From NCBI GenBank assembly GCA_017517305.1, contig JAFWZV010000001.1, positions 124,001 to 188,000 of the forward strand: a stretch of 64,000 nt of DNA, read 5' to 3'. The DNA is from Lachnospiraceae bacterium. Lineage in GTDB: Bacteria > Bacillota > Clostridia > Lachnospirales > Lachnospiraceae. A model generated the notes under the pieces. That model did not search any database and was not told the origin of the DNA. It worked only from the letters and a program-made list of their open reading frames with translations. Each line of letters opens with the position of its first letter. Position 1 is the first letter of the stretch. Positions 4,605 through 58,265 of the stretch are shown in pieces. The position numbers and the translations under genes were made by a program.

Positions 4605-5210
4605 ATGAATACAGTAACAAGTGAATCAAACAATAGAATAAACAAAGCAATTATGCTTAGTGAAAAGGAATACATAAAGGACCAGCAAAGCATTATAGAT
4701 GACTTCTACAAGGAGTATTATACCTATGATATCTCTAATATAGGCTATTGGCTTGTAGCAGGCATATTTACATTTATACAAATTGTGTTTATGGCAGTTC
4801 CTTTTGAAGAATTTTATGTGAATGGAAAACCAACATTTATTAATGCCTCAGATGATAGAGGATTACTAGCTATGATGGCATTTTTGTTTGCCTTTCCTGT
4901 GTTCTTTTATATGCAGCCTTTTGTAGTGGGGAACTTGAATGGAAGAGTGGGTTCTATTTATTCCCAGATAAAATACCTTCCGGTTTCGCTAAAGGCTGTT
5001 AGATTATACAGATTTAAGAAAATGCTTAAATTTGTGCTTAGAGTATTACTTGTGTGTGCTGTGTTACAGTTAGGAATTAGTCTCATTGCATACCACAGGA
5101 TAATGTGGCAGACATTTGTGTATCTTTTTATATATGGATTTTTGATTCCTTTTCTTGTGGGTATTTGCGCGGCTATAGGAGTTGGAGAAATGTATTTCAA
5201 TAAAGTGTAA
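4605..5210 (+). CDS. Hypothetical membrane protein, probable ABC permease partner
   Basis: A 201-residue protein with a soluble N-terminus of ~45 residues and about five hydrophobic segments (near residues 48-65, 87-105, 143-160, 165-180 and 182-197). It lies 84 nt after the ATPase gene, with AGGAG shortly before ATG. The segment SIYSQIKYLPVSLKAVRLYRF resembles the cytoplasmic loop seen in small clostridial exporter permeases, but I cannot assign a family. The role as membrane partner of the 3870 ATPase is inferred from position. Confidence 0.6.
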   Translation: MNTVTSESNNRINKAIMLSEKEYIKDQQSIIDDFYKEYYTYDISNIGYWLVAGIFTFIQIVFMAVPFEEFYVNGKPTFINASDDRGLLAMMAFLFAFPVFFYMQPFVVGNLNGRVGSIYSQIKYLPVSLKAVRLYRFKKMLKFVLRVLLVCAVLQLGISLIAYHRIMWQTFVYLFIYGFLIPFLVGICAAIGVGEMYFNKV

Positions 5211-46270: not shown

Positions 46271-47890
46271 GTGGCTGAGAAGAATAACCAGAACAACAAT
46301 CAAAGTAAGCCTCAGGATTTAAATCAGCTCCTAAAGGTAAGACGTGAAAAGCTTGCAAACCTTCAGGAAGCAGGAAAGGATCCATTCCAGATTACTAAGT
46401 ATGATCAGACTCATCACACTGACGAAGTAAGAAGCTTATATGAGGCTCATGAGGCTAAGCTTTTAGCAGACTGGAAATATCCTAATGTAGAAGGAATGTC
46501 AGAGGAAGAGGCAAAGGCTGCTAAGGACGCGGATTACAATGAAAGAAGAGCTATAATGGATGCATCTCCAATTAATGTTTCTATAGCTGGACGTATGATG
46601 TTTAAGCGTGTTATGGGAAAGGCATCATTTGCAAATATACAGGATATAAATGGTAAGATTCAGGTTTATGTGGCAAGAGATGCAATAGGCGAAGAACCAT
46701 ATGCTGAGTTTAAGAAGTCAGATATTGGTGACATCTACGGAATAAAGGGATATATCTTCAGAACAAAGACTGGAGAGATTTCTATACATGCCCAGGAGCT
46801 TACAATGCTTACTAAGAGCTTACAGATTCTTCCAGAGAAGTTCCATGGCTTAACAGATACAGATACACGTTATCGTCAGAGATATGTTGACCTTATTATG
46901 AATGAGGACAGCAAGAAGACATTTATCAACCGTTCAAAGATTATAGCTGCTATTAGAAAGTACCTTGCAGGAGAGAATTTCCTTGAGGTAGAAACCCCTA
47001 TGCTTGTGTCAAATGCAGGTGGTGCAGCAGCAAGACCATTTGAGACACATTTTAATGCATTAAGCGAGGATTTTAAGCTTCGTATATCACTTGAGCTCTA
47101 CCTTAAGAGACTTATCGTAGGTGGACTTGAGAGAGTTTATGAGATTGGTAGAGTATTTAGAAATGAAGGTCTTGATACAAGACACAATCCAGAGTTTACA
47201 CTTATGGAGCTTTACCAGGCATATACAGATTATAATGGAATGATGGATCTTACTGAGAACATGTTTAGATATGTGGCTCAGGAGGTTCTTGGAACTACAA
47301 CTATTACTTATAATGGCATAGAGATGGATCTTGGAAAGCCTTTCGCAAGAATCACAATGACTGAGGCTGTTAAGCAGTACGCAGGAGTTGATTTCGATGC
47401 TATCGAAACTCTTGAGGAGGCTCGTGCTATCGCTAAGGAAAAGCATGTTGAGTTTGAGGATAGACATAAGAAGGGTGATATCTTAAATCTCTTCTTTGAG
47501 GAGTTTGTAGAGGAGCACCTAATCCAGCCTACATTCGTTATGGATCATCCTATCGAGATTTCACCTCTTACTAAGAAGAAGCCAGAGGACCCTAATAAGG
47601 TTGAGCGTTTTGAGCTTTTCATGAATGGCTGGGAGATGTGTAACGCATACTCAGAGCTTAATGACCCTATCGACCAGAGAGAACGTTTCAAGGCACAGGA
47701 GGAGCAGCTTGCTCAGGGTGATGAGGAGGCTAACACAACTGATGAGGACTTCCTTAACGCTCTTGAAATTGGTATGCCACCTACAGGCGGTATAGGATAT
47801 GGTATCGATAGATTATGTATGTTGCTTACTGATTCACCTGCTATAAGGGATGTATTACTCTTCCCGACAATGAAATCTTTAGACAAATAA
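46271..47890 (+). CDS. lysS: Lysine--tRNA ligase, class II
   Basis: Charges tRNA-Lys. 539 residues with GTG start. An N-terminal basic extension and OB-fold anticodon-binding domain (~95-195) precede the class II catalytic domain: motif 2 in YEIGRVFRNEGLDTRHNPEF (~284-303), motif 3 in GIGYGIDRLCML (~515-526). The last 34 nt of sequence, from within the final codons to 5 nt after the stop, are repeated exactly at 55405-55438, and the likely original terminator of the gene now lies beyond that repeat. The coding sequence itself remains intact. Confidence 0.96.
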   Translation: MAEKNNQNNNQSKPQDLNQLLKVRREKLANLQEAGKDPFQITKYDQTHHTDEVRSLYEAHEAKLLADWKYPNVEGMSEEEAKAAKDADYNERRAIMDASPINVSIAGRMMFKRVMGKASFANIQDINGKIQVYVARDAIGEEPYAEFKKSDIGDIYGIKGYIFRTKTGEISIHAQELTMLTKSLQILPEKFHGLTDTDTRYRQRYVDLIMNEDSKKTFINRSKIIAAIRKYLAGENFLEVETPMLVSNAGGAAARPFETHFNALSEDFKLRISLELYLKRLIVGGLERVYEIGRVFRNEGLDTRHNPEFTLMELYQAYTDYNGMMDLTENMFRYVAQEVLGTTTITYNGIEMDLGKPFARITMTEAVKQYAGVDFDAIETLEEARAIAKEKHVEFEDRHKKGDILNLFFEEFVEEHLIQPTFVMDHPIEISPLTKKKPEDPNKVERFELFMNGWEMCNAYSELNDPIDQRERFKAQEEQLAQGDEEANTTDEDFLNALEIGMPPTGGIGYGIDRLCMLLTDSPAIRDVLLFPTMKSLDK

Positions 47891-47895
47891 AGCTA
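47862..47895 (+). repeat. Direct repeat / putative att site, left copy (lysS 3' end)
   Basis: A 34-bp sequence covering the last codons and stop of lysS, starting TCCCGACAATG and ending AAAGCTA, identical to 55405-55438. The two copies bound a 7.5-kb segment. Confidence 0.85.
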
Positions 47896-48028
47896 GTAAA
47901 ATCAAGGATTTCAGAGATTTTTGATTGTAATTTACTACAAATATACTACAAATTTACAACGTATAATACTGAATAATAAGTAATAATACGTTTTTGTAGC
48001 GATTACGTTTTTAATAATTTTGCATTAT

Positions 48029-48074
48029 TTAAGGACAATTTTCTAAAAGAAATTTTAGAAAGTTGTCCTTTTTT
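48029..48074 (+). terminator. Rho-independent terminator
   Basis: AAGGACAATTTTCTAAAA and its imperfect complement TTTTAGAAAGTTGTCCTT form a long stem followed by TTTT. Confidence 0.75.
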
Positions 48075-48163
48075 GTTCGTCGGAAAAAATGTTATTATAA
48101 GTCGAAAGTTCGTCAGAAAAAGTGTAAAAAGATATGGAAAGTTCGTCAGAAAAAGTGTATACT
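48075..48163 (+). promoter_or_regulatory. Three 33-bp-spaced direct repeats with embedded promoter
   Basis: GTTCGTC(G/A)GAAAAA(A/G)TGT begins at 48075, 48108 and 48141, exactly 33 bp apart (three helical turns). The third copy lies between TGGAAA (48135-48140) and TATACT (48158-48163), a 17-nt-spaced promoter for the ATPase gene. Looks like a cooperative operator. Confidence 0.7.
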
Positions 48164-48194
48164 AAAACTAGAACATTAGAAATGGGGTGGTTTT

Positions 48195-49484
48195 ATGAGA
48201 CGATATGCATTGGAAAAACTAATTGAATGGAAAAATAAAAAAAATCGTAAGCCTCTTATATTGAAGGGGGCAAGGCAGGTTGGAAAAACCTGGCTTATGA
48301 AGGAATTTGGAAAGCAGTGTTTCAAATATACAGCTTATATAAATTTTGATAACAATAAAAGAATGGAAGATGTATTTTCCACAGACTACGATATAGAAAG
48401 AATATTGATGTCTATAAATATTGAGACAGGTGTGAAGATAGTTCCGGGAGAAACCTTGATTATATTTGATGAGATTCAGGAAAATCCCAGAGCTATAGCA
48501 GCTTTAAAATATTTTTACGAAAATGCACCCCAGCATGCAATTATAGCAGCCGGTTCATTGCTTGGTGTTGCTATACACGAAGGAGTGTCGTTCCCTGTGG
48601 GCAAGGTAGATACATTGGAATTAAATCCTTTAAGCTTTAAAGAATTTTTGCTTGCTTTGGGAGAGGAAGGGCTGGTTTCCTTGATTGAGAAAAAAGAGCA
48701 AGGGTTAATTGAAGCCTATCATGATAAGCTACAGGATTATCTCAGAAAGTATTATTATATCGGTGGCATGCCGGAAGTGGTATCGAATTTTGTGGAGAAC
48801 AAAGATTTTACAGAAGTACGAGAATTGCAAAATAGAATCATAGAGCTGTATGAAAGTGATTTTAGCAAACACACTACGGTGGGAGAATTGCCGAGAATCC
48901 GAATGGTGTGGAATTCTATCCCTATGCAGCTTGCGAAGGAAAACAAGAAGTTTTTCTTTGGTAAGATTAAAGAGGGTGCCAGAGCAAAGGATTTTGAGAT
49001 AGCAATAGAGTGGCTTATGGATTGTGGCCTGATTAAAAAAGTATATAAGGTAAATAAGCCAGCCATGCCACTAAAGGCATATACGGAATTTTCGGCATTT
49101 AAGCTCTTCCTTCTTGATGTAGGCTTGCTTGGCGCATTGAGTGATTTGGATGCAAAGTCAATATTAGAAGGAAATAAAGTGTTTGTAGAATTTAAGGGTG
49201 CTATGACAGAACAGTATGTTTTACAGCAGATTGTGGCTGAAACACCATATACACCATATTATTTCACAGAAACTAAATCTGAGGGAGAAATAGATTTTCT
49301 TATCCAAAAGAATAGTCTGATTGTACCTATAGAGGTTAAAGCAGAGGAAAATCTTAGAGCAAAAAGCTTGAAAGTGTTCTGTGATAAATATAAACCAGAA
49401 CTGGCAATCAGGACGTCTATGTCTAAATATAGGGAGCAGGATTGGATGATAAATGTACCTTTATATTTAGTGAGTGAAATATAG
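48195..49484 (+). CDS. AAA family ATPase with C-terminal DUF4143 nuclease-like domain
   Basis: A 429-residue protein. N-terminal AAA_14 ATPase: Walker A LKGARQVGKTWLMKEF (~22-37), Walker B TLIIFDEIQENP, sensor AAGSLLG. The C-terminal DUF4143 domain (~205-390) ends with the restriction-endonuclease-like strand pair EIDFLIQKNSLIVPIEVKAEENLRAKSLKVF (E-x-K), suggesting a nuclease fold. These proteins are abundant in accessory regions of anaerobes; biochemical role is unclear. It has its own three-repeat promoter and lies inside the lysS-linked island. Start ATG at 48195 follows GGGGTGG. Confidence 0.9.
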   Translation: MRRYALEKLIEWKNKKNRKPLILKGARQVGKTWLMKEFGKQCFKYTAYINFDNNKRMEDVFSTDYDIERILMSINIETGVKIVPGETLIIFDEIQENPRAIAALKYFYENAPQHAIIAAGSLLGVAIHEGVSFPVGKVDTLELNPLSFKEFLLALGEEGLVSLIEKKEQGLIEAYHDKLQDYLRKYYYIGGMPEVVSNFVENKDFTEVRELQNRIIELYESDFSKHTTVGELPRIRMVWNSIPMQLAKENKKFFFGKIKEGARAKDFEIAIEWLMDCGLIKKVYKVNKPAMPLKAYTEFSAFKLFLLDVGLLGALSDLDAKSILEGNKVFVEFKGAMTEQYVLQQIVAETPYTPYYFTETKSEGEIDFLIQKNSLIVPIEVKAEENLRAKSLKVFCDKYKPELAIRTSMSKYREQDWMINVPLYLVSEI

Positions 49485-49600
49485 TCTTTTTTACGCAAAA
49501 ATTGGATATTTCTGCGCAAAAAAATGTAATTTAGAAAATGTGTGCTATATTAACGTTAAAAATGAAAATGTAAACATTGTACAAATAGCATTATAATTTG

Positions 49601-49629
49601 TTTACAAAATGTAAAGTAGAAATTATAAT
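49601..49629 (+). promoter_or_regulatory. Promoter of the surface protein gene
   Basis: TTTACA (49601-49606), 17 nt, TATAAT (49624-49629). A second TATAAT at 49592 may be an alternative -10. Confidence 0.65.
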
Positions 49630-49709
49630 TCATGTATAATAAGTTAAAGAAATAAAATAGTGAATACATTTATGGAGTTATACAGGGATTTCGGAAGGAG
49701 AATTTGTAT

Positions 49710-52700
49710 ATGAAAAAAAGGAAGAGAATGAAGAAAAGATTTGCTGCACTTGCGATGGCGGTAATCTTAGCATGGACTACTGTAGATATGCCGATTGTTG
49801 CGGCAGGTAGTCAGGATGTTTCTTGCGAGCATCATGTGGAACATACTGCTGAATGCGGATATGCAGAAGGAGAAGATGGTTTAGAAATATCACCTTGCAA
49901 TTTTGAATGTGAGGAATGTACAAATGCATCAAATGATGGTTCAGATACAGTATCGGGAAATGAAATGTCTGATGAAACGACAGAATGCACCTGCGGAACC
50001 GATGACCCGGCATTCCATGCAACCAACTGTCCGGCATATATCGCACCGGAAAATCCGCAGTGCTTTTGTGCAGAAAAATGTACGGATGACACTTTAAATG
50101 TATGGTGTGATGTCTGCGGTGTACAGGGAGTAAGTGCGTGTCAGGGCGATTTCGACAGTGCCACAAGTTTTGCGTCAACCACCACCGTATTTAGTAATAA
50201 AGCCTGTGGTGCGAGCACCAACGAAGGCGGAGCAGAAAGCGTAACTTGCACTTTTGTCTGGGATTTTACGGATACTAATAATAAATTTGGTATACTTACC
50301 ATTAGCGGTAGCGGTGCTATGGCAGATAGCACTCCTTATTGGGCTAGAAGCGGCTACGACTATAGAACCCCTGAGGGAAATGAAAGAGGTCGTACGATAA
50401 ATAAGGTTATAGTAGAAGAAGGTATTACGTACATTGGAGATTTTGCATTTTACGGATGTACTTATCTGGACTCTGTATTATTGCCAAGCAGCTTAAAAAG
50501 TATAGGTGATTTGGCATTTGCAGATTGCCCCTTTGAAACTATAGATATACCGAGTGGCGTTACATCAATAGGTCAGAGTGCATTTAATGGTTGTAGCAAC
50601 TTGACTTCTATAACGATTCCGGAAGGAGTAAAGTATATTGAACGTCAAGCGTTTCAGGCGTGTAGTAGCTTGACTTCTGTAACGATACCGGATGGTGTGA
50701 TACAGATAGGGATGTTTGCATTTGTTGATTGTACCGGATTACAAACCGTATCAATACCGTCAAGTATACAGAACATAGGGAATGATGCTTTTAAAGGTTG
50801 TACATCACTCACAACCGTAAATGTTCCGTGTTCGTGGGAAAATAATCCGCTTTATACTTTTGAAGAAGGCGTTACCGTAAATATAGCAGACCACAATCGT
50901 AATGCGAATGGTGCGTGTATCGTTTGTAAAGACGGCTATGCTACAGAACCGAATAAGGTAAGCAGTACACATTATCCTGAACTTAATGATACACATAGCG
51001 GATATTATGCTATTGAAACTATGGAACAGCTTTGTTGGTTTTCTGACTATGTGAATAAAGGAAATACATCTGTTAATGCAGTATTGACAGATGATATCGT
51101 TGCGGGAGCTAATGATATATGGACTCCGATAGGCAACAACACAAATATTTATGCGGGTACTTTTGATGGAAATAATCATACAATCAGTGGATTATACACT
51201 AATAATGAACAGGCAAGCTATGTAGGATTATTTGGCACAATAAGTGGTACTGTAAAAAATGTCGGCGTAACTAATGTGTCTTTTTCGGGAACCTACAGCG
51301 TAGGAGGTGTGTGTGGAGAAAATAGAAGTGGCACTATCCAAAATTGTTACAGCACAGGTAGTATAAGTAACGATGACCAGAATGCAGGCGGTGTGTGTGG
51401 ATTTAATGGTGGAACAATCCAAAATTGTTATAGCGAATGCACTGTGGAAGGAGCTTCATTCGTAGGTGGAGTATGTGGATACAATAACGGAACAATCCAA
51501 AATTGTTACAGCACAGGTAGTATAAGTAACGTTGACCAGAATGCAGGCGGTGTGTGTGGAATTAATAACAATTCAATCACAAACTGTTATTACCTTAATG
51601 GAACATATTGGACTGGAATTGGTGGCGATGGTCAAGGCACAGCCGAATCTAAAACAGAAAATGAGTTTAACAGTGGTGCGGTTGCATATCTGTTAAACAA
51701 TTCGACAAGCACAGGCAACCTTGTGTGGTATCAGAATTTGTCTGATAATACAGATTCTTATCCAGTCCTTAATCATACTCACGGTACAGTATATTCTGTA
51801 TATAAGTGTGATGGAACAACCATTTATCGCAATGTAAATGAGAATATGTCGCATATACCGAACTACTCTGCAAGTGGCGACACAATAACTGCAAGTTGTT
51901 CACAATGTTCACAAGAAAATATAGGAACAATCGTAATTTCCGCAAGTAATAAGTATTATGACGGCACAGCGGTAACGGCAACAGTTGAAAATAATGTTGA
52001 CGGAACATATTACAGTTCATCAATCGTATATAAGGACAATACGGGAACGAAAGTTGATGGGGCTGTAAATGTAGGAATATATACTGCAAATCTTACTCTT
52101 ACAAGTGCGAACGGCACAGAAGTAACTGCAAGTTGTCAGTTTAATATTACAAAGGCTGAAATAACAAGTATTACGGACTTTGGTGTAGTTGCTCCTGTTG
52201 CAGGTGAAACACCACAAAGCAGCGTTGCAGCGGGAACAGGATATACAGCAGAGATAAGCTGGCAGCCTGACGATACAAGCTATGCACCTAACACGGTATA
52301 TATCGCTACGGTTACTCTTACCGCTGACACTAATCATTCCTTTGCGGATAGTATAACAGTTAGCGGTTGGGATAAGTCCGTAGATGCTGATAAGTTAGTA
52401 TTTACAAAGGAATTTGATGCTACTGGTAAGTTGGAGTGTGATGTAATTGTTCCGACAGCGAATATACTTACCTACAACGGTTCTGCACAAGAACTTGTAA
52501 CAGCAGGAACAGTTCCCGACGGTTGCGAAATGCAGTATAAGCTGGGTGATGACGGAACATTCTCTGATGAAATTCCCACAGCAACCGACGCTAATACATA
52601 CAAGGTGTACTGGAAAGTTGTAGGAAATGACACTTACAACGATATTGATAACGGAGATTATGTAGAGGTAACTATCAGCAAGGCAACTCCGACAAGCGAT

Positions 52701-55226
52701 ATGTTTACAGCTACTCCTTCGTCAGAACTTGTATATGACGGAACTGAAAAGTCTATAATTGTTACAACCGATAAGGAGGGTATGGGAACATTTACCGTTA
52801 GTTATGTTAGTTTTACTGATAGTACACAACCTGTAGAGGCGGGTTATTATATTGTTCGCCTTCATATTGAGGAGGGTGATAACTATATCGCAGTTGATAC
52901 TCTTTCTTTTGTCCCTTTCGAAATTAAAAAGGCAGACTCTGTAATTACAGCAGCTCCGACACCTATTGCAGAACTTGTATATGACGGAACTGCACATAAC
53001 CTTATAAATGAAGGTACAGCAACAGGCGGTACAATGCAGTATAGCCTTGATGGCACAAACTATTCATCTGCAATTCCAACAGGCACAGACGCAAAGACCT
53101 ACACAGTATGGTATAAGGTAGTCGGTGATGAAAATCATAACGATACTACTCCTGCAAGCATTGAGGTAACGATTGCTCCAAAAACTGTTGAAATCAGTTC
53201 TGTTACTGCAATTAATAGAGCGTTTGACGGAACAAATACAGTTGAGATTTCAGAGGTAATTATTGAGGGTATATTAGATGAAGATGAAGATAAGGTATCA
53301 GTAAGTGCTACTGCAGCAATTGATAGTATAAATGCTGGTGAATACATTATTGTTGACTTGTCAAACATCACATTGACAGGAAGTGCGAATTATTCCATTG
53401 CAGCAAGTACCGAAAATGTTCCATTAACAACCGCTGTTACTATCAGCAAAGCGGATGCCCCTACCTTGCCAAGTGGAAGCAAAGCATATGTGTACAGCAT
53501 AGGCTATGAAGGTGAGAGTGTAAGTATTACCGGACTTCCGACTAATTGTGGCGAAGTGGAATATTCTTTACTTAGTGTATCAAGCGATATGTTTGAGAAT
53601 TTGTCAGTAGATTCAAGAAGCGGAAAGATTACCTATGATGTAAAAGCATTGGATAACTATACGGAAGATTTACAAGGAACTATTTCTGTTAACGTTATGA
53701 TGGAAAATTATAAAACAGCAATCTATACGCTTACTATTACAAGAACAGAAAAGATTCCGCAGAATATCAGTGCAGAGGATATTACTCTTACCTATGGTGA
53801 TGCAGATGCCACAATTTCCGTAACAGGAGCAAAAACAGAACTTTCTTATGAAGTGGTTGAGGATTCAAATGATAACGGTTATGTGGTAACGGTAGATGCA
53901 AATGGTAAGGTAAGTATAGAAAATGCAGGAACAGCGATAATCAAAATTACGGCAGTAGAGTCTGATGATTATGCAGAATCAGAGTGTGAAATAAGAGTGA
54001 CTGTAAATAAGCGTCCTGTGAATGTACCTGCAAAGGATAGTACCGTGTACACTTATACAGGTAAGGAACAGACCTACAGTATAGCAAGCAGTCCTTACTA
54101 CACAATTGCGAACGCAACACATACAGATGCAGGAAAATATGAGGTTGTTGTGAATTTGAATGAAAACTGTGTATGGAATGGCAATTTACCAACATATGAG
54201 TTTGAGATTAAGCCGGCAACTGTAAATATTAAAGCAGAAAGCTATACTGTGAAAAAGGGAGATACACTACCTACTTTTTACTATGATGTAACAGGTTTGG
54301 TAAATAATGAGACACTTCCGATTACGGTAAGTATAGCTTGTACAGCATCGGATACAAATACAGTAGGAACCTATGACATCACTGTTTCTGGTGTTTCAAG
54401 TGAAGGAAACTACACATATGTTTATACAAATGGTGTGTTAGAGGTGCTTGCAGAAGATGAGGCTCCATTTATCATGGGCGATGATGGTAAAATGGGTTGG
54501 GATGCTATCAGTGATGAAATCGAAGATGCTAATAAAGGAGACACTATTGTAGTAGATATGAATGGTGCAACCGTTGTGCCGGGAGATATCATCGAAGAGG
54601 CAAGAGACAAGGGTATTACAATTTCATTTGTGCTGGATAATGGACTGACATGGACAATAGACGGAAGCACTGTAACAGATGGGGATATTAGCAATATTAA
54701 TTTTGACACCACAGTAGAGGATGAAAACAATCCATTGAATAATATTCCGGTAGATGTTATTAACGGAGTAACCGGAGAAAAAGCAACTATTGAAGTGAAC
54801 CTTACATATTCCGGAAACTTTGGTTTTACTGCTGTGCTTAAAGCGAACCTTGGAAGCGATAATGCTGGTTATTATGCAAATCTGTATTATTATAATCCTA
54901 CAACTGGCAAGCTTGAATACATGTGTGCAGATGTGATAGCTTCAAATGGTGAAGCAGAACTGAGTTTTACCCATGCATCAGATTATTTGATTGTCATTGA
55001 TGATGAAGACCTTGGTAAAGCACCAGATGATGATGCTGATGACGATGATGGCGATGATAATGATGATGATGATGACAATACTACAGAGGATAAAGACGAC
55101 GGAAAAGACGAAGTTCCGGATACCGGAGATGATGGAACACTCTATTTGTGGGTGCTTATGCTTTGTGCGTTGATTGGTATGGCTGGAGTGACCTACTACG
55201 AGAAATTACTTGGGAAAAAGGAATGA
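49710..55226 (+). CDS. Large secreted, wall-anchored repeat protein: BspA-type LRR, GLUG and MBG-like domains
   Basis: About 1838 residues. A basic signal peptide (KKRKRMKKRFAALAMAVILAW) is followed by a Cys-rich region (~35-150), about six BspA-type leucine-rich repeats (~230-390: SIGQSAFNGCSNLTSITIPEGV), a GLUG-repeat region (~480-635: GGVCGENRSGTIQNCYSTG), and then many Ig-like MBG/YDG-type domains (~740-1590: YDGTAVTATV, LVYDGTEKSI, LTYGDADATI). Near the end are an acidic Asp-rich linker, the sortase-like signal EVPDTGDDG, a hydrophobic span and KKE. VPDTG is a noncanonical LPXTG-type signal. Likely an adhesin or glycan-binding protein. ATG 49710 follows GGAAGGAG; TTG 49704 is less likely. 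GC-richer codon use than neighbours suggests acquisition. Confidence 0.9.
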   Translation: MKKRKRMKKRFAALAMAVILAWTTVDMPIVAAGSQDVSCEHHVEHTAECGYAEGEDGLEISPCNFECEECTNASNDGSDTVSGNEMSDETTECTCGTDDPAFHATNCPAYIAPENPQCFCAEKCTDDTLNVWCDVCGVQGVSACQGDFDSATSFASTTTVFSNKACGASTNEGGAESVTCTFVWDFTDTNNKFGILTISGSGAMADSTPYWARSGYDYRTPEGNERGRTINKVIVEEGITYIGDFAFYGCTYLDSVLLPSSLKSIGDLAFADCPFETIDIPSGVTSIGQSAFNGCSNLTSITIPEGVKYIERQAFQACSSLTSVTIPDGVIQIGMFAFVDCTGLQTVSIPSSIQNIGNDAFKGCTSLTTVNVPCSWENNPLYTFEEGVTVNIADHNRNANGACIVCKDGYATEPNKVSSTHYPELNDTHSGYYAIETMEQLCWFSDYVNKGNTSVNAVLTDDIVAGANDIWTPIGNNTNIYAGTFDGNNHTISGLYTNNEQASYVGLFGTISGTVKNVGVTNVSFSGTYSVGGVCGENRSGTIQNCYSTGSISNDDQNAGGVCGFNGGTIQNCYSECTVEGASFVGGVCGYNNGTIQNCYSTGSISNVDQNAGGVCGINNNSITNCYYLNGTYWTGIGGDGQGTAESKTENEFNSGAVAYLLNNSTSTGNLVWYQNLSDNTDSYPVLNHTHGTVYSVYKCDGTTIYRNVNENMSHIPNYSASGDTITASCSQCSQENIGTIVISASNKYYDGTAVTATVENNVDGTYYSSSIVYKDNTGTKVDGAVNVGIYTANLTLTSANGTEVTASCQFNITKAEITSITDFGVVAPVAGETPQSSVAAGTGYTAEISWQPDDTSYAPNTVYIATVTLTADTNHSFADSITVSGWDKSVDADKLVFTKEFDATGKLECDVIVPTANILTYNGSAQELVTAGTVPDGCEMQYKLGDDGTFSDEIPTATDANTYKVYWKVVGNDTYNDIDNGDYVEVTISKATPTSDMFTATPSSELVYDGTEKSIIVTTDKEGMGTFTVSYVSFTDSTQPVEAGYYIVRLHIEEGDNYIAVDTLSFVPFEIKKADSVITAAPTPIAELVYDGTAHNLINEGTATGGTMQYSLDGTNYSSAIPTGTDAKTYTVWYKVVGDENHNDTTPASIEVTIAPKTVEISSVTAINRAFDGTNTVEISEVIIEGILDEDEDKVSVSATAAIDSINAGEYIIVDLSNITLTGSANYSIAASTENVPLTTAVTISKADAPTLPSGSKAYVYSIGYEGESVSITGLPTNCGEVEYSLLSVSSDMFENLSVDSRSGKITYDVKALDNYTEDLQGTISVNVMMENYKTAIYTLTITRTEKIPQNISAEDITLTYGDADATISVTGAKTELSYEVVEDSNDNGYVVTVDANGKVSIENAGTAIIKITAVESDDYAESECEIRVTVNKRPVNVPAKDSTVYTYTGKEQTYSIASSPYYTIANATHTDAGKYEVVVNLNENCVWNGNLPTYEFEIKPATVNIKAESYTVKKGDTLPTFYYDVTGLVNNETLPITVSIACTASDTNTVGTYDITVSGVSSEGNYTYVYTNGVLEVLAEDEAPFIMGDDGKMGWDAISDEIEDANKGDTIVVDMNGATVVPGDIIEEARDKGITISFVLDNGLTWTIDGSTVTDGDISNINFDTTVEDENNPLNNIPVDVINGVTGEKATIEVNLTYSGNFGFTAVLKANLGSDNAGYYANLYYYNPTTGKLEYMCADVIASNGEAELSFTHASDYLIVIDDEDLGKAPDDDADDDDGDDNDDDDDNTTEDKDDGKDEVPDTGDDGTLYLWVLMLCALIGMAGVTYYEKLLGKKE
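51336..51560 (+). repeat. Two 66-bp near-identical copies within the GLUG region
   Basis: 51336-51401 and 51495-51560 differ at one base. Such near-identity among otherwise diverged repeats points to recent duplication or conversion. Confidence 0.85.
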
Positions 55227-55404
55227 AAAAAGGTAAAATAAGCAGTAAAAAACTGTTGCTAGTTTTACAACGAGTGGGTGGCAGTTGCCGCCCACTTATT
55301 TCTTCTTTTCCAAATTTAATAAAAGAAAGTAAGTCATCCATAATGCTTGAAAACAAAACGCAGTTGATATAAGATAACAATTGATGATATATTGCTTAAT
55401 CTAA

Positions 55405-55438
55405 TCCCGACAATGAAATCTTTAGACAAATAAAGCTA
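55405..55438 (+). repeat. Direct repeat / putative att site, right copy
   Basis: Identical over 34 bp to 47862-47895 (lysS end), here without the rest of lysS. It is followed by the probable ancestral lysS terminator. Confidence 0.85.
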
Positions 55439-55450
55439 ACTAACGAGGAT

Positions 55451-55487
55451 AAAGATAGGTGATATATTACATCACCTATCTTTTTTT
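55451..55487 (+). terminator. Terminator, probably the original lysS terminator
   Basis: AAAGATAGGTGAT pairs with ATCACCTATCTTT around ATATTAC, followed by TTTT. It sits 12 nt past the right direct repeat, the position expected for lysS before the insertion. Confidence 0.88.
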
Positions 55488-55508
55488 ATACCATAAAGGA
55501 GTTTACCG

Positions 55509-57419
55509 ATGATACAAGAATATACCAGAGAAAACATAAAAGAAACTGTATATGTACCTGCATCTGTTGAAGCAGAGCTAAAAACTAATATAGAGAATCA
55601 GTTAAACAAATGTGGCATATTTTACCGTGTGTTTTCCAGAAGAAAGTCTGCTACCTCCTTAGAACATAAGTTAGCAACTGGAAAATATGGTGGTGCCGAC
55701 AACAAGAAAATTCAGGATTTGATTGGACTACGTGTGAATTTATATTTTCAGGACGACTTAGATATCTGTAAAGAGTTATTTCAAGATATGTTTGAGATGG
55801 CCGAGAAGGAGTGGTCCGAAAATGAAATGAGAAATGAAAACTTTGAGGCATCTAAGATTAATGGCGTGTTTAAGCTTCCAGGATATATGGTGAGCAAAAT
55901 CAGTCCTGAAACATGGGAGCTTCCTATTGATCAAACCTTTGAGATTCAGCTTAAAACAGTGTTTTTTGAAGGTTGGCATGAGGTAGAACATGATTTTAGA
56001 TACAAGATGAAGGATAAAACTGGTGAGAAGGAGACAAGTATTTGGGATAATTATTCTGAATATTCCAGACAGTTTAATAGTGTTGTGGCTACATTAGAGC
56101 TATGCGACAGATCTATGGTTGTAATGTTTGAGGATTTTGCTCACAAGCTATACAAGGAACACAATTGGGATATGATGCTTAGAATGCATTATAGGGTAAG
56201 GATATCTGATCAGCCATTATATGATGGTTTAGCAGAGATTTTGGATGATGAAGAATTAAAGCTAGGTAAAAAGCTTTTTAAAACCAATAGAAATATATTA
56301 ATAGAAAAGCTAAAAAACTTTCACAGAGATATTCCTATTAGCGTGAATATGATAATTGCTTTGCTGAATGATAAAGAGCTTGGGAACAATGAGCAAATCA
56401 ATAATATTATGAGGGCTAATAATGTATATAAAGATGGAATCTCTATTACAGATAAAAGCTATAGTGTAAGAGAATTGGCACCCATGACACCATACTGTGT
56501 ATTTAAGAACAAAGTATTGATTCGATATGGGAAGGAAGATATATATGGGGCAGCGGATGCTTTTAGAGAGCTTCCTGCATACATATACAAATGGATGAGA
56601 GCTAAATTCAGACCAGTTTTTCAGGATATTCCGGAAGAGTTTTGCGATTATGAAAATATGTCACCAGGCTACCAGATAAGCTTTAAAGCATCGCCTAATG
56701 AATTTACTCTTAATATGAGTATTATGCATCTGGCGCAGGATGTGGGGGCTAGAATGTGGGGAACAGAGGTAGAGATAAAGCCTCACCAAGATGACATTGG
56801 TGTCTGGATGGAGATAAAGAACATTATGTATGACGGAAGAACGATTAGTGAAGCTGAGCAAATCTCTAGATTTAGTTATCCAACCCTTTATAGAACCATA
56901 TTCAGTGACTCGAGATTGTCTGTTGTTGATGCACAAAAGTATTGGGATAAGGTTTTTGTGGTATGTAATGAAGATAATGTAAAATCTTTAAGTGAATTGA
57001 TACAGTCAGAAGAAAGGTTAACTCCTGTTGTAGTTTTGGCATCTAATATGAAGGAGGATGGCTCTGGATATTTAGATGAGGAATGGATAGGAAAGTATTG
57101 GTCTATAAACCTTCACAAGCAGGTGAGGTACTATGCCCATGTTTATCGTTGCTCAGTGGATGATTTGCCGTTGATTAAGGAGGATTCTAGTCGGCTTGAG
57201 GATAAACAATTAGGAGTGTATGTATTTTGGCCAAAATGCTATAGTGAATTTAAACCTCCTTATGAATTCTACAGCCAGGAAGATATTGGTAACTGCGTAT
57301 ACAATCGTCTTAGAGGTGAAGGCGCTGGGGTACGTGAAGACCGTATAAAGGATGGTGCCACTGCATTTTCAGTTATGCTGGTGGATGAGATCAAGAAATG
57401 CATAATCAAAAGCCATTAA
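55509..57419 (+). CDS. RelA/SpoT nucleotidyltransferase-domain protein with a long unassigned C-terminus
   Basis: A 636-residue cytosolic protein. Residues ~20-200 form a (p)ppGpp-synthetase-type domain: R44-x-K46...S50...K54 in SRRKSATSLEHKL, the metal-binding aspartate in KIQDLIGLRV (D70), FEIQLKT (E145, Q147), and GWHEVEHDFRYK (~155-166). No hydrolase, TGS or ACT domain is present, so it is not a standard long RSH. The remaining ~430 residues include a region around WMRAKFRPVFQDIPEEFCDY and a C-terminal segment VYVFWPKCYSEF that I cannot place. It may be a stand-alone alarmone synthetase or a toxin-like pyrophosphokinase with an added regulatory or self-inhibiting domain. Ribosome site AAAGGAG. 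Confidence 0.8.
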   Translation: MIQEYTRENIKETVYVPASVEAELKTNIENQLNKCGIFYRVFSRRKSATSLEHKLATGKYGGADNKKIQDLIGLRVNLYFQDDLDICKELFQDMFEMAEKEWSENEMRNENFEASKINGVFKLPGYMVSKISPETWELPIDQTFEIQLKTVFFEGWHEVEHDFRYKMKDKTGEKETSIWDNYSEYSRQFNSVVATLELCDRSMVVMFEDFAHKLYKEHNWDMMLRMHYRVRISDQPLYDGLAEILDDEELKLGKKLFKTNRNILIEKLKNFHRDIPISVNMIIALLNDKELGNNEQINNIMRANNVYKDGISITDKSYSVRELAPMTPYCVFKNKVLIRYGKEDIYGAADAFRELPAYIYKWMRAKFRPVFQDIPEEFCDYENMSPGYQISFKASPNEFTLNMSIMHLAQDVGARMWGTEVEIKPHQDDIGVWMEIKNIMYDGRTISEAEQISRFSYPTLYRTIFSDSRLSVVDAQKYWDKVFVVCNEDNVKSLSELIQSEERLTPVVVLASNMKEDGSGYLDEEWIGKYWSINLHKQVRYYAHVYRCSVDDLPLIKEDSSRLEDKQLGVYVFWPKCYSEFKPPYEFYSQEDIGNCVYNRLRGEGAGVREDRIKDGATAFSVMLVDEIKKCIIKSH

Positions 57420-57452
57420 GTGTAAGTTGTTAATAAAAAGGAGATAGGCTAT

Positions 57453-58265
57453 ATGCAATATAATGTATTTGATATGTCTGTAGAGGGAAGCGTGGGAAAT
57501 CCAACCCTTACAACCTATGTAATAGATTTCTCACCTGCTCTTAAGAATAATGATAGACCTATGATAATAATCTGCCCGGGTGGTGGATATAGTCATGTGT
57601 CTGATAGAGAGGGAGAGCTGCTTGCTATGCAGTTTCTTGCGGCAGGATTTCATACAGCTGTACTAAAGTATTCGGTGGAGCCAGCCAGATTTCCCACACA
57701 GCTTAAAGAGCTTGCTAAGGCAGTTGCATTGGTTAGAAGCCATGCTGAGGAATGGCACATAATTAAGGACAAAATCATAATTCAGGGTTCCTCTGCAGGT
57801 GGACATTTGGCAGCGTCCCTTGGCTGTTTCTGGAAGCAAAAAACTATTTTTGGTGAGTTGTCACATGAGGAAATAGATTTTATTAGACCTAATGGATTGA
57901 TACTAAGCTATCCTGTAATAACCTCAGGAGAGCATGCACATGTTGGATCATTTCAAGCGCTTCTAGGGGACAAATACGAGGAGTATAAGGAGGTCGTATC
58001 TCTTGAATTACAGGTGAACGAGAATACTCCTAAAACCTTCCTATGGCATACCTTTGAGGATGGTTCGGTGCCAGTAGAGAATACTTTGCTATTTATACAG
58101 GCTCTTAAGAAGCAAAATATTCCTTTTGAATGCCATATTTATCCAAAGGGAATTCATGGATTATCTCTTGGTAATGAGCTAACTCTTGGGGTTAATGAAA
58201 GTGAGCTTCAGCCAGAGGTTACCACCTGGGTGGAATTGGCGAAAACATTCGTTGCTAATTTCTAA
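57453..58265 (+). CDS. Alpha/beta hydrolase, acetylesterase-like
   Basis: A 270-residue cytosolic esterase-type enzyme. Oxyanion-hole motif CPGGGYSHVS (~41-50), nucleophile elbow QGSSAGGHLA (Ser114), an acid residue in HTFEDGSVPVENT and catalytic His in KGIHGLSLG. The arrangement matches BD-FAE/acetyl-xylan-esterase-like hydrolases of rumen and gut Firmicutes that deacetylate plant glycans or their oligosaccharides. No signal peptide, so it would act on imported fragments. Separated by 33 nt from the RelA-domain gene, possibly co-transcribed. Confidence 0.9.
   Translation: MQYNVFDMSVEGSVGNPTLTTYVIDFSPALKNNDRPMIIICPGGGYSHVSDREGELLAMQFLAAGFHTAVLKYSVEPARFPTQLKELAKAVALVRSHAEEWHIIKDKIIIQGSSAGGHLAASLGCFWKQKTIFGELSHEEIDFIRPNGLILSYPVITSGEHAHVGSFQALLGDKYEEYKEVVSLELQVNENTPKTFLWHTFEDGSVPVENTLLFIQALKKQNIPFECHIYPKGIHGLSLGNELTLGVNESELQPEVTTWVELAKTFVANF

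Follow-up and report, generated by a model that had tools for sequence, protein, structure and literature searches.

Integrative elements that have decayed and lost their integrases, the CIMEs (cis-mobilizable elements), are, in the accessible part of the source, a described kind of element that undergoes accretion in tandem (PMC5704250), and the 3' end of lysS is, in the available portion of another source, a described target of streptococcal ICEs (PMC4701971). The island described here, which lies at the 3' end of lysS in a Lachnospiraceae genome, has features of both. As in CIMEs, so far as they are portrayed in the accessible text (PMC5704250), the attachment ends have been kept, the integration and transfer genes have been lost and the site is used by other elements; tandem neighbours are found in a relative, G009. 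The island differs from CIMEs in that its mobilisation by a resident or incoming element is only putative, as is its derivation from an ICE, an IME or another parent. With the lysS ICEs of streptococci, going by the available text, it shares the gene and the end of the gene, the involvement of a tyrosine recombinase and direct repeats of the gene end, whereas those repeats measure 13-17 bp as opposed to 34 bp here (PMC4701971), and the island has no conjugation module and no recombinase and comes from a different bacterial family. A further comparison is with integrases of the Tn916/Tn1549 type: the recombinases found next to lysS tails in relatives have the same domain order (PF02920 followed by PF00589) but are lysS-specific, judging by position, and the window has none. 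The nearest solved chain to these recombinases is PDB 6emy, which we take to be Tn1549 Int. In the partial open-access literature searched, no papers joined Lachnospiraceae, lysyl-tRNA synthetase, and integrative elements with their integration site.

We conclude that the segment 47891-55438 is very probably a decayed, integrase-less (CIME-like) integrative element that was inserted at the lysS 3' end by a Tn916-type recombinase, which was lost thereafter. Read in this way, the island documents the decay of an integrative element into a fixed cargo island, with an intermediate visible in the sister genome G009.

The island and its 34-bp direct repeat

The window is the whole stretch of DNA analysed, 64 kb in length (G000:C9:124001-188000), from a 2.72-Mb draft genome of 25 contigs. 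Its features at lysS are as follows.

46271-47890, + strand: lysS, lysine--tRNA ligase, 539 aa, the target gene (ORF; NCBIfam NF001756 / TIGR00499 above cut-off)
47862-47895, + strand: left copy of the 34-bp repeat, attL core, consisting of the final 29 bp of lysS and AGCTA
47934-47953, + strand: two arm-type repeats ACTACAAAT at 11-bp spacing, presumed integrase arm sites (from their positions and the enrichment of this spacing in relatives)
48031-48070, + strand: terminator-like hairpin of the island left end, now the first behind lysS (18 pairs and a T tail)
48076-48159, + strand: three 18-bp repeats TTCGTC(A/G)GAAAAA(G/A)TGT at 33-bp spacing (48076, 48109, 48142), presumed operator, preceding the ATPase gene
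48195-49484, + strand: AAA_14 + DUF4143 ATPase of PADLOC class PDC-S01, candidate phage-defence gene (Pfam; PADLOC PDLC04786, E 2.4e-190)
49704-55226, + strand: 1,840-aa surface protein with a signal-like N terminus and LRR_5, GLUG, YDG and MBG_2 domains (ORF, Pfam)
55272-55297, + strand: terminator-like hairpin of the surface-protein gene
55340-55404, + strand: island right arm, homologous to the right arm of G009, with the recombinase remnant absent here (alignment)
55405-55438, + strand: right copy of the 34-bp repeat, attR core
55451-55483, + strand: terminator-like hairpin past the right repeat copy

The two repeat copies are identical throughout and 7,543 bp apart, so the exact duplication of the lysS tail about 7.5 kb downstream, as claimed in the initial annotation, is confirmed. 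The shared sequence includes the stop codon (47888-47890), and the adjoining base differs between the copies on both sides; a gene-end direct repeat thus stands at both island borders. The repeat is longer than chance would give: when the 9.5-kb region was resampled 200 times (order 1), exact repeats reached at most 18 bp. The 2.72-Mb genome contains only these 2 copies with up to 3 mismatches allowed. That the insertion restores its target gene is true in effect, given that the lysS product is unchanged; the repeat, however, reaches just 5 bp past the stop codon, and the point of strand exchange within the 34 bp cannot be located from the sequence.

Could the lysS tail have been copied by homologous recombination or local duplication, without any site-specific recombinase? 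The exact identity of the copies, over just 34 bp, is compatible with such an origin. We nevertheless consider it highly improbable, because 7.5 kb of unrelated genes separate the copies, the right copy has no lysS sequence upstream of it, and the recombinase and arm evidence from relatives speaks against duplication; local tandem duplication, in particular, is ruled out by the fact that only 34 bp are common across 7.5 kb of foreign genes. The contention that the island differs in base composition did not survive: its GC content is 37.97% against 37.81% for the rest of the window, 7.5-kb windows of the 64-kb stretch span 36.4-39.5%, and composition (38.0% against 37.8% in rounded terms) is ruled out as a sign of foreign origin. 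A tRNA or tmRNA as the target was likewise rejected, none being present in the window, and no RNA family reached its gathering score in 47000-58000.

Arms, terminators and empty sites

The ACTACAAAT repeats behind lysS would be binding sites of the integrase. Repeats of 8-mers at exactly 11-bp spacing occur in 22 of 73 distinct lysS 3' flanks, which are related by descent and thus not independent, compared with 18 of 2,310 windows drawn at random from these loci; the flanks come from the genus, named Lachnospiraceae and other Clostridia. For any spacing of 9-22, the counts are 32/73 versus 160/2,310. A first count at spacing 9-22 gave 34 of 77, these being the flanks of 140 bp or more among 110 loci; the lysS locus listing covers 61 of 80 named loci, the 19 omitted mostly having lysS at a contig end. 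In the window, the 11-bp-spaced 8-mer repeat is confined to the left flank, with none in the right flank. The left arm and its terminator recur in L088 (JAGAQZ010000049), where 164 of 167 aligned bases are equal and one 11-bp arm unit is deleted; the lysS genes of L088 and the window are 75.6% identical, and different sequence follows beyond the shared left arm. By these comparisons, the left end of the island is horizontally shared.

In relatives, the motif of the hairpin at 48031-48070 follows either lysS or a right tail copy. The initial annotation had placed the lysS terminator beyond the second copy. A hairpin is indeed present there, at 55451-55483, but its identity as the original lysS terminator is not established: a stronger-looking 18-pair hairpin lies on the lysS side, and 55439-55508 has no match in the other genomes among the 37 of the genus.

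The search for lysS ends covered 61 genomes, namely our own and 60 relatives, 36 of them of the same genus. In G033, the lysS stop lies at 4760 and is followed 6 bp later by a terminator (4766-4799), and the 15 kb covered contains no further tail copy; this is a clean empty site in a relative. The exact empty site of this strain, sought by way of its downstream stretch 55439-55508, was found in none of the other genomes among the 37 of the genus. G018 was rejected as a second clean empty site: it has no second copy, but its flank is arm-like and a terminator was not detected. In G031, the lysS contig ends in 119 bp that are also present on the recombinase contig, where they span and follow the right tail copy; the equivalent contig overlap in G030 is 127 bp. 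Both lengths match common assembler k-mers, so that reads for the two kinds of junction, lysS-chromosome and recombinase-chromosome, were probably present. The G031 overlap is what would be expected from coexisting empty and occupied sites; the stretch shared in G030 looks like an old left arm, and a tandem is possible there. Counting against the element reading, of the 60 loci that extend 1 kb or more beyond lysS, only two (L033, L039) showed a convincing downstream copy of the gene's own tail, two further own-tail matches being 14-bp minus-strand ones. Most elements may, however, exceed the stretch examined, and we make no wider claim of inserts behind the majority of lysS genes.

Recombinases at lysS and their probable loss

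Extra lysS-tail copies away from lysS are present in G009 (two), G005, G030 and G024, to which a pattern search adds G031, and in four relatives a recombinase gene or remnant lies 115-180 bp upstream of the right-hand copy. G030 and G005 encode recombinases of 413 or 419 aa, 166-174 bp upstream of the right tail copy, with a Tn916-type N-terminal DNA-binding domain (PF02920), a SAM-like domain and PF00589; the G031 recombinase, which lies 180 bp upstream of the tail copy, runs off its contig. The nearest public relatives of the G030 recombinase come from unannotated faecal scaffolds and one Subdoligranulum plasmid. In five of the seven public records fetched, a lysS tail that codes for PTMK lies 199-316 bp from where the recombinase ends, once in the opposite orientation; the other two (MT838008, OY725878) have no lysS tail there; the lysS-tail pattern had no match in 1.41 Mb of reversed sequence. 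Taken together, the recombinases of relatives, the arm repeats, the empty site and the horizontally shared left end bear out the proposal of site-specific integration at the lysS 3' end.

In MT839044.1 (L217, 2586-4521), a Tn916-type recombinase is followed by a lysS tail that continues into an open frame; in our reading, this frame looks like a C-terminal tRNA-binding domain or extension of a longer lysS, with the insertion in mid-gene. A lysS-specific recombinase clade was not recovered: the 14-row tree has one well-supported fork, its lysS-adjacent rows do not form one group, and the 3 changes required for lysS adjacency were matched or bettered in 27 of 500 shuffles. A phage origin was rejected, relatives of the G030 recombinase in IMG/VR (22 loci) being at most 28% identical; the better matches in phage collections are unannotated 'unverified' faecal scaffolds, which are not proof of phage.

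So what became of the recombinase in the island itself? That there is none inside was upheld: tblastn with three lysS-type integrases gave chance-level scores in the window. The genome has 5 places with PF00589, none of them on the window contig C9, and no lysS-type recombinase, the nearest being 30% identical, so that present mobility of the island is not supported. Transfer genes of its own are likewise absent, MobC being found only in a neighbouring segment of G009. The answer is suggested by this closest relative, whose lysS segment is 98% identical. The surface-protein end in G009 is homologous to that of the window (89%; protein 93% and 88%) and runs directly into a 191-aa recombinase remnant, followed by the right arm and a tail copy. 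The remnant matches PF00589 positions 3-80, is 53% identical to the G030 recombinase and lacks the first ~110 residues and the catalytic C-terminal half. In the window, the surface gene has an intact end and a terminator of its own, and the right arm is the one seen in G009, but there is no recombinase sequence; 55340-55438 corresponds to L034 2963-3061 at 88.9% identity. The simplest account is that independent deletions in the two sister lineages removed the recombinase, and the remnant at the homologous right end of G009 links the island to a recombinase-bearing element. Counting against this, the G009 island is divided over two contigs whose left and right parts are not joined as one element. 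The absence of a recombinase had been called unusual; the absence stands, and its unusualness is weakened by the truncated recombinase at the matching place in G009 and by the CIMEs described in the accessible part of PMC5704250.

The island might instead be a passenger cassette bounded by lysS tails that never had a recombinase of its own and is moved in trans, in tandem arrays, by the recombinases of other elements at the same site. In G009, the first segment behind lysS, bounded by lysS tails, encodes MobC, an EcoO109I-type restriction enzyme, a C5 methylase, a NACHT protein and two DUF6462 proteins, and no PF00589 match occurs on that contig. G024, too, has AbiEi/AbiEii between lysS and a displaced tail, and the window island is itself without a recombinase. 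The homologous right end of G009, however, holds a recombinase remnant in the standard place, so that at least this island type once had a recombinase, and both G009 and G024 are incomplete drafts. We therefore regard a passenger origin as distinctly unlikely.

Returning to a decayed element that once carried its own recombinase, we infer the order of events, arm binding, loss by deletion and possible trans-mobilisation as follows. A Tn916-type tyrosine recombinase targeting the lysS 3' end would have inserted the element, leaving lysS intact and a tail copy at the opposite border; the ancestral element would have carried its recombinase gene beyond the surface-protein gene, before the right end. 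Cargo would have been exchanged after insertion, and the recombinase would have been lost by deletion, partly in G009 and completely in the window. The remaining cargo island would retain both attachment cores and the left arm but lack a recombinase of its own, persisting in a CIME-like manner, the lysS product being kept and lysS presumably now ending at the island terminator at 48031. Such an island could move only if another element at the same site supplied a lysS-specific recombinase.

Cargo and neighbours at the lysS 3' end

Both cargo genes named in the initial annotation are present: the giant surface protein between the repeat copies and the ATPase gene with three upstream repeats, for which an operator role is presumed. 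The surface protein starts at TTG 49704 or ATG 49710, and its VPDTGD-like C-terminal end, a motif read in the sequence, is presumably a wall anchor. A paralogue of its C-terminal half (56-69%) is encoded elsewhere in the same genome (L076, G000:C25:43362-44762).

Residues 1-428 of the ATPase align to positions 3-431 of the 439 in PDLC04786, which makes it a candidate defence gene of the PDC-S01 class, as far as model matching can tell. In one survey, partly available, no single defence locus was more frequent in rumen genomes than PDC-S01 (PMC13356809). A literature search on DUF4143/AAA_14 returned unrelated papers only. The ATPase gene and its upstream repeats are 98.4% identical over 1,424 bp at another site in G033, which indicates that this gene also moves separately from the island. 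The triple 18-bp repeat at 33-bp spacing is seen, in addition, in L212 (2068-2151), L074 (7063-7146) and L213 (2334-2417), and precedes PDC-S01 ATPase genes in G019 (65% at the protein level) and G033 (99.5%); in G009, it is followed by the first 21 residues of the ATPase and then the contig end. The 18-bp motif occurs in 7 of the 37 genus genomes, with 0 matches in the reversed control; the contigs of G023 and G010 stop after it, and G012 has a single copy with no such ATPase gene nearby.

Other elements have used the same site. In G009, a second tail copy stands ~7.9 kb behind lysS around other cargo, as expected of such a site. The next contig end in G009 opens with the ATPase region of the window (97%), and an arm remnant and another PDC-S01 ATPase lie behind the third tail copy of this genome. 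Restriction genes lie behind lysS in two further genomes, a type II pair in G019 and a type IV enzyme in G013; these defence-gene neighbours were chosen by eye, without a control count. In G024 (L039 10453-12366), the displaced lysS tail beyond AbiEi/AbiEii is ~84 bp long and 1.8 kb off, and the insertion, which lacks a recombinase, is deeper inside the lysS gene. These findings point to heavy use of the lysS 3' end for integration in Lachnospiraceae, often by inserts with candidate defence genes, which makes it a practical place for finding new ones. A broader proposal, which we consider rather unlikely, is that in ruminant-gut Lachnospiraceae it serves as a landing strip on which recombinase-less, mostly candidate-defence cassettes are stacked, in integron-like fashion, moved in trans by Tn916-type lysS recombinases.

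Directly behind the right repeat copy, 55509-57419 encodes a 636-aa RelA_SpoT-domain protein with a weak match to PADLOC HEC-07, for which G014 (38%) has the only near-full-length relative among the 60 other genomes. Synteny with G009 resumes at 57452, and the interval up to that point may be another insertion.
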